A stretch of DNA of 64,000 nt from Planctomycetota bacterium (GTDB lineage Bacteria; Planctomycetota; E44-bin39): NCBI GenBank assembly GCA_004376375.1, contig SOJX01000136.1, forward strand, positions 1-64,000. The letters are read 5' to 3'. Shown here one piece after another: positions 43,031 through 49,391 of this stretch. The position numbers and the translations under genes were made by a program. How positions within the stretch are numbered: the first letter of the stretch is position 1; the number at the start of each line of letters is the position of its first letter. The notes under the pieces were generated by a model, which worked only from the letters and a program-made list of their open reading frames with translations, made no database searches and was not told the origin of the DNA.

Positions 43031-43034
43031 TACC

Positions 43035-43064
43035 GAGACTTTCAGGGCCGGACGGGATTTAAAG
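43035..43064 (+). promoter_or_regulatory. Candidate ECF promoter, copy 1 (sigma gene)
   Basis: GAGACTTT (43035-43042), 11 bases, GGGATTTAAAG (43054-43064). Identical to two other copies at 43877 and 45524 in both boxes and in spacing. Read as -35 GAGACTT and -10 TTTAAA, the spacer is 16 bp. Faces the sigma-factor gene. Confidence 0.7.
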
Positions 43065-43127
43065 ACAAGGAGGCGACAGGAATCCGTCTAAATGCCCCAT
43101 CGCGGGAAAAACCGGGCCATGATTAAT

Positions 43128-43155
43128 AACCGCTCTGCGTTACAGGGCGGTTTTT
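43128..43155 (+). terminator. Rho-independent-type terminator in the sigma-gene leader
   Basis: Stem AACCGCTCTG (43128-43137) pairs with CAGGGCGGTT (43143-43152) with one G-U, loop CGTTA, followed by T run to 43155. It lies between ECF promoter copy 1 and the sigma gene, so it would cut that transcript at about 85 nt unless overridden. Confidence 0.55.
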
Positions 43156-43282
43156 GCATATCCGCATCCCGCTGGAGCGAAAGTTATCCAGTCTTGACTT
43201 TCAAAGGCAATAATACTAATGTTGTGGGGATAAAGTGCAACGCGGCGTAAAAGAAACCGGCAGGAGAAGCCTGAAAAATATT

Positions 43283-43867
43283 ATGGTGGAAAAGGTTGAC
43301 CCGGATACTCAGTTGATGCTTCGCTTCCAGGCCGGCGATGAGAAAAGCTTCGAGCAACTGGTCGAGCGCAATAAGCAGAAAGTCCTCAACCTGGTTTACA
43401 GGTTCCTGGGAGCATGGCAGGACTCGGAAGATATTGCACAGGAAGTATTTATAAAAGTCTACCGCGCCCGAAAAACCTACAAGCCGATAGCCAAATTCAT
43501 CACCTGGCTTTATATTATATGTAAAACCACCTGCTACCAAGAGTTAAGGAAACGCAAGCTGAAAATTGTATCTCTTTCCGATGATAAGGCTTTGGCGGAT
43601 GGGCCGGTCGGCCGCCAGATAACGGACAAGAGCAGCCCTTCGCCGTTGGGCTCGGTATTGCAGGATGAGCGGACTATTGCCGTAAAGGAAGCCATAGATT
43701 CGCTGCCGGATTCCCAGAAAATGGCCCTGATTCTGCGCAAATACGAGCATCTGTCCTATCTGGAGATATCGGAAGTCATGGAATGCACGGAAAAGGCCGT
43801 AAAATCCCTTTTATACAGGGCCAAGCAGGGCCTGAAGGAAAGGCTCAAAGATTTTCTGAAAAAATGA
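43283..43867 (+). CDS. ECF-family RNA polymerase sigma factor
   Basis: A 194-residue sigma factor of the RpoE/ECF group. Region 2 (about 5-75) has DTQLMLRFQAGDEKSFEQLV and the core-binding DSEDIAQEVFIKVYR. Region 4 (about 125-190) has SLPDSQKMALILRKYEHLSYLEI (pieces) and the helix-turn-helix ending KSLLYRAKQGLKERL. I give ATG 43283 as start because it lies just before region 2; GTG 43235, with a GGGG stretch upstream, would add 16 unconserved residues. The anti-sigma gene follows at 43928. Three copies of one promoter-like motif in this cluster suggest that it drives its own gene and its partners. Confidence 0.9.
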   Translation: MVEKVDPDTQLMLRFQAGDEKSFEQLVERNKQKVLNLVYRFLGAWQDSEDIAQEVFIKVYRARKTYKPIAKFITWLYIICKTTCYQELRKRKLKIVSLSDDKALADGPVGRQITDKSSPSPLGSVLQDERTIAVKEAIDSLPDSQKMALILRKYEHLSYLEISEVMECTEKAVKSLLYRAKQGLKERLKDFLKK

Positions 43868-43876
43868 GATCCCGGC

Positions 43877-43906
43877 GAGACTTTTCGGCTCAACCGGGAT
43901 TTAAAG
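43877..43906 (+). promoter_or_regulatory. Candidate ECF promoter, copy 2 (anti-sigma/EF-hand genes)
   Basis: GAGACTTT (43877-43884), 11 bases, GGGATTTAAAG (43896-43906). Ten bases behind the sigma-factor stop. A start near 43912 leaves a leader of about 16 nt carrying GGAGG. Confidence 0.7.
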
Positions 43907-43927
43907 AGGCAGATGGAGGCATGACAG

Positions 43928-44449
43928 ATGAATTGCCGTAAAGCACAGAAAGTACTGACAGACGCAATCGGAAAAGGTGCAACTCTTGACCCGAAGGTCG
44001 AGGAGCACCTCGAGGATTGCCCGTACTGCAGGCTGGAAAAAGCACGGCTCGAGGAGATGTGGGGCCTGCTGGACAGCTACAATACTCCAAAGGCAAGCGC
44101 CGGCTTTACCTCCAGCCTGATGGCCGGAATCAGGTCCGAGCAGCCCGCCCCCGAGCCGATTCACACCGGCAGCGGGCTGAAGCGCTGGCGTATGGTCTCG
44201 GCCCTGGCGGCTTCGCTGGTTATCGCGGTCATACTCTGCGTGCTGTGGGTAAAACCGCTTTTCAAACAGGACGTCGTCAGAGTGGAGCCGCAGGACGCCG
44301 GTCAGACCGCGCAAGCCATCAGCGATGAGGACATTATAAAAGACCTGGAAGTCTTTGAGAACATCGACATGCTCCAGAACATGGCGCTTTTGTCCGAGTA
44401 TGACGTAATTGAAAACCTCGGCGATACGCTCGATGAGGAAAACAGGTAA
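43928..44449 (+). CDS. Zinc-finger transmembrane anti-sigma factor
   Basis: A 173-residue single-pass membrane protein. The N-terminal part (about 1-40) is a zf-HC2/ZAS-type anti-sigma domain with Cys3 and the H-x3-C-x2-C motif EEHLEDCPYC, which binds and holds ECF sigma factors. One membrane helix lies at about 92-112. The 60-residue periplasmic tail is acidic. ATG 43928 has GGAGG 8 nt upstream. It sits directly behind the sigma gene, the classical pairing. Periplasmic proteolysis or tail sensing would release the sigma factor; no site-1 or site-2 protease gene is adjacent. The EF-hand protein gene begins 1 nt after its stop. Confidence 0.88.
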   Translation: MNCRKAQKVLTDAIGKGATLDPKVEEHLEDCPYCRLEKARLEEMWGLLDSYNTPKASAGFTSSLMAGIRSEQPAPEPIHTGSGLKRWRMVSALAASLVIAVILCVLWVKPLFKQDVVRVEPQDAGQTAQAISDEDIIKDLEVFENIDMLQNMALLSEYDVIENLGDTLDEENR

Positions 44450-44450
44450 A

Positions 44451-45494
44451 ATGAAGAGCAAGGCTTACATACTGATGTCCTGGGCAGTGATTCAACTGCT
44501 GGCCTTGCTGTTGGTACCGGCCGTTTACGCAGGGGAAGACGCCAGGGCCCGCGGACGCCGGTTCAAGGCGAACCAGAAGAGATGGCAAAGCCTTTCCGAG
44601 GAAAAGCGTCAGGCGATAAGGGACAGAGCAAGGAAAATTTCGCCCGAGCAGCTCAAAGAGCTGAGGCAGAAACTCGCCGAATTCAAAAACCTCCCCCAGG
44701 AAAACCGGGAACAGATCAGAAGCAATTTCGGAAGATTCAGGCATCTTCCTCCGATGGTTAGAAGAAGAATCGCCAAGAGGTTCAGGCGTTTCAGAATGCT
44801 CCCCGAAGCGAAGAGGATGGAACTGAGGCGGCGGTTCAGGCAGAGAAGAAGGCTTGGCCCTGCGAGTAACCGGCCCGGCCCGGGACCGATGAGGCGCATG
44901 AGGCCACAGGCAAGGCCGGAAGACAGACCGGACAGCCGCAAAGAAGGCCCGAAAGGCGTAAGGCCGCGTCCCCCGAGAGGCCCCAGAGGCGACGGCCCCG
45001 GACCCGGCGCAAAAAGCTCGAGACCGGGCCGCCCGAAAGGCATAAGGCCGCGTATCCCGAGAACTCCAAAAGGCGACAGCCCGAAAGTCAAAAGACCGGG
45101 CGCTAAAAGAAGTCCCAGGAGTGACGACCCGAGACCTGATCCGAAAGACCGTTTGAAACAGATGGGTGAACGGTTCAGGGAAATGGACAGGAACGGGGAC
45201 GGCTCCATCTCCAAACGCGAGTTTGCCGGAGTTGCCGAACGCTTTGAGAATTTCGACACCAACGGTGACGGCAAAATATCGAAGGAAGAATGGGCAAACA
45301 CCGTCAGAGAACTTTACAGGAAAAAGCGGGAAAACGGCGGAAGGCCAGAACGCCCGAAAGGCACGAGACCCGAACGGCCGAACGGCACAAAACCTGAGCG
45401 CCCGAACGGCACGAGACCGGAGCGCCCGAAAGGCACAAGACCGGGCGGCAACCGCCCGCGCCAGCGCCCTAACGGCAGGACTGGAAGGCAGTAA
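44451..45494 (+). CDS. Secreted DUF3106-like protein with two EF-hands and basic repeats
   Basis: A 347-residue exported protein; signal peptide about 1-24 (ending VYAGED). Residues 30-140 contain helical Arg-rich repeats like DUF3106/Spy-type periplasmic proteins (RWQSLSEEKRQAIRDRA, FKNLPQENREQI, FRHLPPMVRRRI, FRMLPEAKRMEL). A Pro/Arg/Gly-rich low-complexity region follows. Two canonical EF-hand loops are at residues 246-257 (DRNGDGSISKRE) and 269-280 (DTNGDGKISKEE), so calcium binding is likely. The C-terminus repeats RPERPKGT/RPNGT units. ATG 44451 starts the signal peptide, one base after the anti-sigma stop. Co-expressed with the anti-sigma factor, it may be its periplasmic sensor partner or its output. 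Arg richness suggests binding to acidic polymers. Confidence 0.75.
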   Translation: MKSKAYILMSWAVIQLLALLLVPAVYAGEDARARGRRFKANQKRWQSLSEEKRQAIRDRARKISPEQLKELRQKLAEFKNLPQENREQIRSNFGRFRHLPPMVRRRIAKRFRRFRMLPEAKRMELRRRFRQRRRLGPASNRPGPGPMRRMRPQARPEDRPDSRKEGPKGVRPRPPRGPRGDGPGPGAKSSRPGRPKGIRPRIPRTPKGDSPKVKRPGAKRSPRSDDPRPDPKDRLKQMGERFREMDRNGDGSISKREFAGVAERFENFDTNGDGKISKEEWANTVRELYRKKRENGGRPERPKGTRPERPNGTKPERPNGTRPERPKGTRPGGNRPRQRPNGRTGRQ

Positions 45495-45523
45495 TAAAAA
45501 TCAGAAAAAACGCCGAATCCGGC

Positions 45524-45553
45524 GAGACTTTTTGACACAAACGGGATTTAAAG
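45524..45553 (+). promoter_or_regulatory. Candidate ECF promoter, copy 3 (basic secreted protein)
   Basis: GAGACTTT (45524-45531), 11 bases, GGGATTTAAAG (45543-45553). It lies 30 bp behind the EF-hand gene and gives a leader of about 46 nt to the next gene. Confidence 0.7.
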
Positions 45554-45604
45554 AAGCAAATAAACAATCCAATCTGGAGACCAATAAAAGGAAAAGGAGG
45601 AAGC

Positions 45605-46093
45605 ATGAAGTATCTCGCTTACGCACTGGTGCTGGTTGCTGCCCTTATGCTTTTCACAAGCCCGGTTGTCGCTGGCGATGAAGACGGTTCGGGCGGCAAG
45701 GGCCCCAAGGCAGGCAAAGGCGGCAAGGGGAAATGCAAGCACCCGAAGGCCCGCGCGCACATCAGGAAGCATATCAGGATGCTTATCAGGCGGATGAGAA
45801 AAGCGGGCAAGTCGCAGGAAGAAATCAGGGAAGCCGTCCGCGCCGCCCTCGAGAGGCTTCGCGAAAGGTTCAAACTGAGCCGCGAGAAAATGGCCGAATA
45901 TATCGCGGGCTTGAAGGAACGGGGCCTTTCCGACAAGGAAATCAGGAAACTCGTCAGGGAAAAGAGAAAAGAGAGAAGGAAAGCGCACAGGGAAAGACAC
46001 AAAGAGAGAAGGAAAGCGCGCAAGGAAAACCGTCCCAACAGACCGAATCCTCCGCGTCGTCCCGGCGGCGGTCGTCCCGGCGGTCGTCCCTAA
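45605..46093 (+). CDS. Secreted Lys/Arg-rich helical protein
   Basis: A 162-residue exported protein. The signal peptide (about 1-23, ending VVAGD) is followed by a Gly/Lys stretch and a strongly basic helical region (about 45-140) rich in Arg, Lys, Glu and His, ending in a Pro/Gly/Arg tail. The helix includes RERFKLSREKMAEYIAGLKE, a pattern recalling Spy/CpxP-like periplasmic chaperones, though no LTxxQ motif is seen. AAGGAGG precedes the ATG. It has its own copy of the ECF motif and a strong terminator behind it. Likely an output of the sigma factor; binding to polyanions or metal is speculative. Confidence 0.75.
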   Translation: MKYLAYALVLVAALMLFTSPVVAGDEDGSGGKGPKAGKGGKGKCKHPKARAHIRKHIRMLIRRMRKAGKSQEEIREAVRAALERLRERFKLSREKMAEYIAGLKERGLSDKEIRKLVREKRKERRKAHRERHKERRKARKENRPNRPNPPRRPGGGRPGGRP

Positions 46094-46114: not shown

Positions 46115-46148
46115 AAAAAAAGCGGCCCATAATCGGGCCGCTTTTTTT
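46115..46148. terminator. Bidirectional rho-independent terminator
   Basis: A run of seven A, stem AGCGGCCC (46121-46128), loop ATAATC, complement GGGCCGCT (46135-46142), then seven T. It ends both the ECF cluster (plus) and the tricorn gene (minus). Confidence 0.92.
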
Positions 46149-46163
46149 CGTTAACAAAATTTC

Positions 46164-48491
46164 TTACTTCTGCCGCTCCGCGGGCAGCGACTTGAGGAGC
46201 TCGTCGATGGCGCCGTCGAGTTGCGGGTAGCGGCCGACCAGGTCGTCCTCGGGCGTTCTGTCGATTTTAATATCGGGGTTCACGCCCCAGTTCTCGAGAT
46301 TGGTGCCGTCCCTCGCATATGCTCCGACGACCGGAGTGCGGATTCGCGACCCGTCGATAAGGGTATAGGAAGAGGTGCCGATAACGCCGCCGCCGGTCTT
46401 TATACCGATGAGCTTCCCGAGCCCGAGGTCGCGGAACCCGCGCGGGAAAATCTCCGCGTTGGAGAACGAGTACTCGTTCGTCAGCACGACCTTGGGGCCG
46501 TAGAACCCGTGCCTCGGCCGGTCGATCTTGACGGCCTCCCTGTTATATGTCCGGTAACCGTACTTTTTCTTCTCCAGGAAATCGAGCAGGTAGACGTCGA
46601 TATAACCGCCGCCGTTGTTTCTCACGTCGATAACCACGCCTTCCTTCTGGCGATACTGCATAAGCTCTCTCTTGAACTGTTCAAGGTAAGGCCTGCTCAT
46701 GGAGAGGATGTGGGTGTAAGCGAGGCGGCCGCCGGAGCGCTCCTCGACTCTTCTGCGGTTGTCGTCCACCCACTTGCGGTAGCGCAGCCGCCAGAGGCCG
46801 GTCGAGCCGATAAGCTTTATCCGCGTCGACCGGTTGTCAGACCCGTCGGCGTTCGGGCCGACCGTGAGGTCAAGGCGGTCGTTCAGAGGATGGTTGAGCA
46901 TCCGATGGTAATTATCGCCGGCGGCGAGCGGCTTCCCGTCAACGGCGAACAGGTAATCGCCCTCGCTCACGTTGGCCCAGTCCTTCAACGCGGGCCCGTA
47001 CTCGTAAATATGGCCGATTCGATAAAGCCCTGACTCCGCGTCGGCCTCGAGTTCCAGGCCGAAGCTCAACGTGGAAACCCCGGAGCTTGGCTCCCGCGGC
47101 GCATAATAGCCCATGTGTGACGCCTTGAGCTCGCCCAGCATCCTGTTTATCACCGTCCCGAGCGCGTCACGGTCGGTAACCGACGGCAGAACGGCCGCAT
47201 ACTTGTCGCGCATGGCCTCCCAGTCAACTTCGTGCATATCGGGGTCGTAAAACGCATGCTTCAACATTCGCCAGCACTCGTGAAATATCTGCTCGAACTC
47301 CTTTGCGGTGTCGACTTTCACTTTTACGGAAACGGCAACCGGCTTCGGCGAGCCCGGGCCGGGCGCGCGGTGATAGAGCCGCCCGCCGGAAAGGTAGAAG
47401 ATTTCCTTCCCTTTGGGCGAGAAACCGAGGGATGAAACCTCTTTGACGCTGCCGATTTTCTTGAACTTCGACTTCTCGGCCTCGGGATCGAAAAGATACA
47501 GGTTGTCCTTTTCTTCGTCCGCGACCGGCTCGGTCACCACCGCGACGATTTTCTTCCCGTCGGGCGATACCGCTGCGGATTTCAACTCCCCCTTGACTTC
47601 GAACAGCTTGCGCACGCGTTTCTCGATCCGGTCGAAATCGATCTTGACTTCCGGCAGCTTGATTTCTTTCTTTTTTTCCTCTTTCTTTTCCGGTTTCTCG
47701 TCGCCCGGCTTTTCGGAGCCGGGTTTCTCTCCCTCGCCTTTTTCTTTCTTCTTCGGTTTTGCGGCCGGCGGTTTTTTCGCACCCGGTTTCTTCTTCGCCC
47801 GGGCGGCCTTCACCTCGGGGTCGTCCGGGTCTTCGGCCTCCCTGGCGAGCGAAACCGCATAGAGATGATTGGTTCCTTCGAGCTCGGTCGAGCTCAGAAA
47901 GAAGAGCTTTTCCTTCGTAAAAGCTACTATCCATTCGTCAAACGGCAGGTTTTCGACGACGATATGCTCCACGGTACCCACGGTACTGTTATCAATCGCG
48001 GAAATGATGCATGCATCGTATTCGAGGTCCTTGTTGGCCTTCAGGAACGCGATCCACCTGCCGTCGGGGGACCAGTAAATTCCCCGGGGTGCGGTTTCCT
48101 CGTACTTCAGCAGCAGGCGCCCGGACTTCTCCTCGAGATTATAGACCCACAGGGTATTATCGCTCCGGCTCACGGAAATGTGCTTCCCATCCGGCGACCA
48201 GTCGAATTCGTATTTCCGGGTATCACTGTCGGTAACCTTGACCAGGTTTTTGCCGTCCGCGTCGACGACGTAAACCTCGTCCTGCTTCGTGCGGTCGGAA
48301 ATAAAAGCGATCTTCTTTCCGTCGGGCGAGTACCGGGGCTTCCTGTCGCGTGCCGGGCCGTCGGTAATCTGGCCCACCCGCCCCTGGTCGAGGGGGCGGG
48401 TTAAAATCTCGCCGTGCGTCGAAATCACGCCCCGGGTTTCGTCGGGAGAGACGTCATAGTCGTCGCACTTGCCGAACTTCCGGTAGCTCAC
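46164..48491 (-). CDS. Tricorn-type S41 protease, C-terminal portion (gene split by TAA)
   Basis: 775 codons from GTG 48491. It has a second beta-propeller (about 1-400, WSPDGK-type repeats) interrupted by a Lys/Pro/Glu-rich insert near 205-270. A PDZ domain (about 490-585) and an S41 peptidase domain (about 590-775) follow. These contain DVRNNGGG, the nucleophile region NEYSFSNAEIFP and GIKTGGGVIG, so the protease part looks intact. The frame is continuous with the upstream 48498-49391 frame except for one TAA at 48500-48498, two codons ahead of this GTG. Together they make about 1,075 residues, the usual tricorn length. Either the gene is a recent nonsense mutant, or this part is made by re-initiation, or the TAA is an assembly error. 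Tricorn degrades peptides after the proteasome or Lon-type proteases. Confidence 0.85.
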   Translation of the reverse strand: MSYRKFGKCDDYDVSPDETRGVISTHGEILTRPLDQGRVGQITDGPARDRKPRYSPDGKKIAFISDRTKQDEVYVVDADGKNLVKVTDSDTRKYEFDWSPDGKHISVSRSDNTLWVYNLEEKSGRLLLKYEETAPRGIYWSPDGRWIAFLKANKDLEYDACIISAIDNSTVGTVEHIVVENLPFDEWIVAFTKEKLFFLSSTELEGTNHLYAVSLAREAEDPDDPEVKAARAKKKPGAKKPPAAKPKKKEKGEGEKPGSEKPGDEKPEKKEEKKKEIKLPEVKIDFDRIEKRVRKLFEVKGELKSAAVSPDGKKIVAVVTEPVADEEKDNLYLFDPEAEKSKFKKIGSVKEVSSLGFSPKGKEIFYLSGGRLYHRAPGPGSPKPVAVSVKVKVDTAKEFEQIFHECWRMLKHAFYDPDMHEVDWEAMRDKYAAVLPSVTDRDALGTVINRMLGELKASHMGYYAPREPSSGVSTLSFGLELEADAESGLYRIGHIYEYGPALKDWANVSEGDYLFAVDGKPLAAGDNYHRMLNHPLNDRLDLTVGPNADGSDNRSTRIKLIGSTGLWRLRYRKWVDDNRRRVEERSGGRLAYTHILSMSRPYLEQFKRELMQYRQKEGVVIDVRNNGGGYIDVYLLDFLEKKKYGYRTYNREAVKIDRPRHGFYGPKVVLTNEYSFSNAEIFPRGFRDLGLGKLIGIKTGGGVIGTSSYTLIDGSRIRTPVVGAYARDGTNLENWGVNPDIKIDRTPEDDLVGRYPQLDGAIDELLKSLPAERQK

Positions 48492-48497
48492 GGGCTG

Positions 48498-49391
48498 TTA
48501 GCGGTAATCGGCCTCTATCTTGATCGGAACCTCGGACGCCTTACCCGTTTTTACGTCGAGTTTCCATATATTGAATTCGTGCTCGAACAGGATGACTTCC
48601 CCGTCGGGCGAAATCGACGGGTTCGTCACCCCGTTTTCAGGCAGGGTCGTTACCTTCTCCGGCTCCCCGCCCGCAACCGGCACGCACCAGATATTGAACA
48701 CGCCGTCGCGCTCGCATACGAAATAAACTTTATCGCCGGCAATCATCGGCGAGTTTTCATGGCGGTCCGTATCCAGCAGTCGGCGGACCGTCTTTTTCTC
48801 CGTATCACAGATATGGATTTTTGCGTTGGCCGAACCGACGTAGCCCCGGCGCCCGTATGAAGCCGACCTCTGCGTATAGGCCAGAAGCCTGCCGTCCGCG
48901 GAAAAAGTACCGTCATACCCCCGGGTTGCCAGGTACGGCTCGGGCATCTTTTCGCCTTCCACGACCACCGTATACAATTGGGAGCCCCAGGTAGAGCCGC
49001 GGCCGGTGCGGAAAATAATTCTTTTGGAATCCATCGTCCAGGTAATCGATACGTCCGTGCCGGAATAATATGTAAGCTGCCTGGGCATGCCGCCGGTAGC
49101 GGGCACGACAAACACGTCCCAGTTGCCGGTCCTGTTCGAAATAAATACAATCCACTTCCCGTCGGGGCTGAACCGGGGGCGAATATCGGTGCCGGGGTGA
49201 GACGTAAGCGGCCGTGCGGCATCGCCCGCGGGCTGAAGCCAGATATCGCCCATGTAACTGAACACAATATTGCCACCGGAGTAATGCGGCGACTGGAGGA
49301 GCCTGGTACCTGCGGCCAGGGCCGGTCGCGCGGCAAGAATACAGGCGGGCATTATCAATCCGATTATTACGAATTTAACGAAGCGGTACAT
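48498..49391 (-). CDS. Tricorn-type protease, N-terminal propeller portion
   Basis: 297 codons giving a signal peptide (about 1-26) and the first beta-propeller of a tricorn-family protease: YSGGNIVFSYMGDIWLQPAGD (pieces), FSPDGKWIVFISNRTGNWDVFVV, SADGRLLAYTQRS, ISPDGEVILFEHEFNIW, all in repeat pattern. GGAGG precedes ATG 49391. It ends with DYR-TAA where homologues continue; the next codons CAG-CCC-GTG stay in frame into the protease half. The signal peptide suggests a periplasmic enzyme. Propeller alone would be non-catalytic. Confidence 0.85.
   Translation of the reverse strand: MYRFVKFVIIGLIMPACILAARPALAAGTRLLQSPHYSGGNIVFSYMGDIWLQPAGDAARPLTSHPGTDIRPRFSPDGKWIVFISNRTGNWDVFVVPATGGMPRQLTYYSGTDVSITWTMDSKRIIFRTGRGSTWGSQLYTVVVEGEKMPEPYLATRGYDGTFSADGRLLAYTQRSASYGRRGYVGSANAKIHICDTEKKTVRRLLDTDRHENSPMIAGDKVYFVCERDGVFNIWCVPVAGGEPEKVTTLPENGVTNPSISPDGEVILFEHEFNIWKLDVKTGKASEVPIKIEADYR

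Follow-up and report, generated by a model that had tools for sequence, protein, structure and literature searches.

A locus-private, promoter-like repeat and a candidate feedback circuit in an ECF sigma factor cluster of a Planctomycetota bacterium

Gene content of the cluster

The window, a stretch of 64,000 nucleotides from a Planctomycetota bacterium, carries a plus-strand gene cluster that begins with an ECF sigma factor gene (43235..43867; 210 aa), for which either a GTG at 43235 or an ATG at 43283 may serve as the start codon. Its product contains sigma2 and sigma4 domains only (PF04542, 7.8e-18; PF08281, 2.4e-15) and matches the structures of E. coli sigmaE and SigW. Adjacent to it, 60 nt downstream of the sigma gene, a second plus-strand gene (43928..44449) encodes a 173-aa protein with (i) an HX3CX2C motif at residue 27 and a cytoplasmic sigma-binding region, as expected of the zinc-type (ZAS) class; (ii) one transmembrane segment at about residue 89; and (iii) an outer tail of 65 aa (residues 109-173) with a net charge of −12. 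Family matches are weak, namely to RsiW over 24-72 (E 0.012) and to Pfam zf-HC2 at 15.7 bits, below the cut-off of 22.2 bits. Together with the motif and the single transmembrane segment, they lead us to read this protein as a zinc-type membrane anti-sigma factor.

The third gene (44451..45494, plus strand) encodes a secreted protein that combines a DUF3106 domain (PF11304, 51.6 bits against a cut-off of 24.3) with two EF-hands, the latter being two stretches with canonical loops (PF13202, 54.3 bits), and with Arg/Lys/Pro-rich repeats; the net charge of its precursor is +61. Between 45352 and 45451, this gene contains 24-nt tandem repeats encoding RPERPNGT-like units. The domain calls of the initial annotation (ECF sigma factor and two EF-hands) were thus confirmed, with signal peptides assigned by reading. 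A further plus-strand gene (45605..46093) encodes a secreted, Lys/Arg-rich helical protein, with a precursor net charge of +33 and no family match above cut-off. Single-sequence models of this basic protein and of the DUF3106 part were helical and gave no fold match with E≤0.001. The cluster ends at a terminator-like plus-strand hairpin, GCGGCCC-ATAATC-GGGCCGC followed by a T run (46122..46148), as read from the sequence. Beyond it, on the minus strand, a tricorn-protease-like gene is seemingly split by a frame change near 48495 into two ORFs (46164-48491 and 48498-49391), whose products read as a single protein.

The repeated motif and its confinement to the locus

Within 2.5 kb, three intergenic copies of a promoter-like motif accompany these genes. 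The initial annotation had reported a thrice-repeated motif with identical spacing, and we indeed recovered exact copies at 43035, 43877, and 45524, all with zero mismatches and all on the plus strand. An alignment of 106 bases around each copy widened the invariant part to CGAGACTTT-N10-CGGGATTTAAAGA, comprising 22 positions, which places the copies at 43034..43065 (P1), 43876..43907 (P2), and 45523..45554 (P3), with a −10-like TTTAAA at 43058-43063, 43900-43905, and 45547-45552, respectively. The 19-position form of the motif gave 0 matches in 100 whole-window shuffles with up to 3 mismatches allowed, and a search for a known RNA family at the motif found no match.

In each copy, 16 bases separate GAGACTT from TTTAAA. 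Assuming starts 6-8 nt after TTTAAA, the predicted leaders are ∼16 nt at P2, where a GGAGG ribosome site (43915-43919) precedes the anti-sigma ATG, and ∼46 nt at P3. Both the 16-base spacing and the distances from predicted start to ATG (16 and 46 nt) fit ECF promoters, in agreement with the promoter-like geometry proposed earlier. The hallmark of ECF promoters is an AAC in the −35 and a CGT in the −10 box (PMC8103513); these boxes typify the early-studied ECFs and are not an absolute criterion (PMC8103513). Here both are absent, with GAC and TTTAAA found instead, which upholds the earlier claim of a departure from the classical signature.

The proposal that the copies precede the genes of the cluster held for P2, which lies before the anti-sigma/EF-hand gene pair, and for P3, which lies before the basic secreted protein gene, but not in the same way for P1. 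The motif does stand upstream of the sigma gene, as positive autoregulation would have it; the two are separated, however, by a 10-bp hairpin and its T run (43128-43155), and a terminator in this place speaks against simple autoregulation. From the spacing, P1 transcription is predicted to start at about 43069-43071, so that P1 may give rise to an ∼86-nt RNA (43070..43155, plus strand; hairpin at 43128-43152, T run to 43155) or to an attenuated leader that reaches the sigma gene by read-through only. The putative RNA as a whole is not unusually stable in folding (z −0.79), and a simple terminator scan did not list the P1 hairpin, probably because its stem uses two of the Ts. Small RNAs under sigmaE control are known in E. 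coli (PMC8103513).

The initial annotation had further envisaged a regulon. A motif search with fixed spacing found no credible sites elsewhere in the 5.68-Mb genome, so this expectation fails and the motif is private to its locus. With up to 2 mismatches of 19, the whole genome yielded the locus copies only; at 3 mismatches, one additional match appeared, within a gene; and varying the gap from 9 to 13 across the genome gave nothing beyond the three locus copies. A relaxed 15-position motif matched 13 times, 10 of them outside the locus and mostly intragenic, as against 13 matches of a reversed control, and a wider regulon was rejected on these grounds. Among 391 other genomes of the same phylum, all from other classes, 13 had a single scattered match each to the extended motif when up to 3 mismatches were allowed; nine matching loci from the phylum, some of them taken from a separate, earlier search, were inspected and were either intragenic or had no gene following. 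An exact match in the GTDB 220 contigs was limited to one copy on a Flavobacteriaceae contig, overlapping short ORFs, which we take to be chance. An ungapped pair search for repeated promoters at other ECF loci, of low power, found none above noise. Elsewhere in this genome, a classical-looking ECF promoter, GGGAACTT followed by GTGTATCTA, lies upstream of a further ECF gene (L104).

The −10-reading helix and the DUF3106 module

Across 62 aligned ECF sequences (the locus sigma factor, paralogues from its own genome, and homologues from the phylum), the locus sigma factor has a Thr where 58 of the 62 have an Asn. By alignment to sigmaE and residue count, this position would correspond to Asn80 of E. 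coli sigmaE and, through the W-x3-I-x2-N pattern, it appears equivalent to Asn88 of Mycobacterium tuberculosis SigH, a residue that wedges the DNA open at the −10 element and is thought to help set specificity (PMC6411747). The same helix departs at two further positions, with Ile in place of Arg (42/62) and Gln in place of Asn (47/62). The strongest tie between sigma factor and motif is that both the reader helix and the candidate box are atypical, a correlation within one locus. An ECF paralogue on contig 76 of the same genome (L102:3248-3811) also has a Thr at the sigmaE Asn80 position, and the motif is absent upstream of it.

The remainder of the cluster belongs to a broader pattern. DUF3106, of which we found no mention in the open-access literature searched, is present in 106 of 294 genomes of the phylum, where the order ECF gene, anti-sigma gene, DUF3106 gene recurs. 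In every one of the 29 DUF3106-linked anti-sigma factors the outer tail is acidic, with charges from −7 to −24 and a mean of −13.4, and a ENLDLLENLELLEDLE-like pattern is repeated in many of these tails (L071-L098, L164-L176). Ten other ECF-linked anti-sigma factors have a mean tail charge of −5; several of these are also acidic, which makes the charge contrast modest, and L073 among them probably belongs to the acidic-tail type. The DUF3106/EF-hand-related neighbours examined were all net basic, from +9 to +79. This combination of acidic anti-sigma tails and basic DUF3106 neighbours suggests that the secreted partner binds the tail by charge-driven docking. Some anti-sigma/DUF3106 pairs occur without an adjacent ECF gene, including one on contig 3 of the same genome (L069:3950-6881), which has a tail charge of −19 and a convergent EF-hand gene nearby.

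Of 31 DUF3106 loci, 3 have an EF-hand gene near the module and two more have one at a distance, compared with 0 of 55 other ECF loci. So low a recurrence led us to discard EF-hands as a core component; they are an occasional accessory of the module. A response to calcium or polyanions, as suggested in the initial annotation, is a conjecture.

A candidate circuit and its closest known systems

We consider it probable, at roughly two chances in three, that the holoenzyme of the locus's own ECF sigma factor uses the three repeats as promoters and that these jointly form a self-contained feedback circuit. Three observations argue for recognition by this sigma factor: (i) within the genome, the ECF locus alone carries the motif; (ii) its spacing and start-codon distances fit ECF promoters; and (iii) the sigma helix is altered, with Thr at the Asn80 position. 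In such a circuit, the zinc-type membrane anti-sigma factor would release the sigma factor and P1, P2, and P3 would fire. P2 would drive the anti-sigma factor and the secreted DUF3106/EF-hand protein, and P3 the secreted basic protein, while P1 would read into the terminator ∼86 nt downstream to give a short RNA, and only read-through would extend to the sigma gene. The basic secreted proteins would probably act back on the acidic anti-sigma tail, resembling RseB on RseA in mechanism and not in homology; the recurrent gene order, the uniformly acidic tails, and the basic DUF3106 neighbours point to this feedback. Counted against recognition by the locus sigma factor are eight ECF/anti-sigma/DUF3106 clusters of the phylum, in which motif scores are at about shuffle level with no clear motif above it, these clusters being too distant for a fair refutation.

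A second point counted against it is the conserved CGGGA upstream of TTTAAA, which is more than an ECF spacer needs and makes the conservation wider than the usual ECF boxes. This feature would suit operators for another regulator, with the ECF sigma factor using unrelated promoters, as would the imperfect direct repeats, 19 bp apart, that CGAGACTTT and CGGGATTT can be read to form. However, the sigma/anti-sigma pair are the only regulator genes adjoining the cluster, TTTAAA stands at promoter distance from the start codons after P2 and P3, and the motif is restricted to an ECF locus, so that we consider operators unlikely. Promoter shape alone cannot name a sigma factor, and the genome holds ∼16 further ECF-like matches; the repeats might therefore be locus promoters read by the housekeeping sigma factor or by a different ECF sigma factor of this genome. 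The motif is absent elsewhere in the genome, and its scores in the regions before 15 other ECF genes are no better than those of shuffles, which speaks against this reading and makes it, in our judgment, slightly less likely still.

The copies might also be alike because a single intergenic segment was recently duplicated locally, without a shared function. The flanks show at most a weak, gapped resemblance, and the N10 spacers differ among the copies. The resemblance concerns two of six comparisons, uncorrected, namely the upstream flanks of P1 and P3 (p ∼0.001 against shuffles, ∼0.019 against window fragments) and the downstream flanks of P1 and P2 (p ∼0.007 and ∼0.019, respectively). While an old local duplication behind the repeats is possible, though not established, a recent one is very improbable, as spacers and flanks have diverged, with gaps, yet 22 positions are identical in all three copies, which indicates selection on the motif.

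Under our preferred reading, in which the repeats serve the locus's own sigma factor, the locus looks like a small private circuit and not like a master regulator of many genes. Its type is a recognisable one among ECF loci, and it carries a striking, locus-private, promoter-like repeat without the usual boxes. With both its −10-reading residue and its candidate promoter altered, the locus constitutes a natural test of the ECF promoter code, and the pairing of acidic-tail anti-sigma factors with basic DUF3106 proteins, which recurs in one phylum, could give this orphan family a function. More tentatively, and with a rather low probability that every part will hold, the locus may combine an ECF sigma factor lacking both the near-invariant −10-melting Asn and the usual boxes, a private promoter within its own locus, one copy of which leads into a terminated small RNA, and a widespread, undescribed acidic-tail anti-sigma factor bound by secreted basic DUF3106 proteins.

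Among known systems, the locus shares with the autoregulated ECF/ZAS pairs sigmaE-RseA-RseB and SigW-RsiW the sigma regions 2 and 4, an adjacent anti-sigma factor with HX3CX2C and one transmembrane segment, and in-locus promoters, putative in the present case. It differs from them in that the AAC/CGT boxes are absent, the three motif copies occur only in the locus, a terminator lies between P1 and the sigma gene, and basic secreted partners take the place of RseB. The arrangement at P1, a putative ECF promoter followed by a terminator hairpin within <100 nt, is that of the sigmaE-dependent small RNAs MicA, RybB, and MicL, whereas the P1 RNA is a predicted one with no known relatives or targets. 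In CnrYXH of Cupriavidus, a membrane anti-sigma factor and an extracytoplasmic sensor partner likewise control an ECF sigma factor (PMC4598750); however, CnrY is of a structural class other than the zinc type and CnrX senses Co/Ni (PMC4598750), and DUF3106 showed no sequence or fold match to a CnrX/Spy-like partner in single-sequence models at E≤0.001. In the CaBP-SigV system of Caulobacter, as in this locus, the gene of a secreted EF-hand protein adjoins an ECF sigma gene, and both genes there have ECF-type promoters and are reported to activate each other (PMC13171946). That system differs in its −35 element of the GGAA(G/C)C type, in its gene order, and in that no anti-sigma factor was identified there (PMC13171946), and CaBP has 133 aa with three EF-hands and no reported DUF3106, in contrast to the DUF3106 and two EF-hands found here (PMC13171946). 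Nevertheless, CaBP-SigV provides a precedent for coupling between an EF-hand protein and an ECF sigma factor (PMC13171946).
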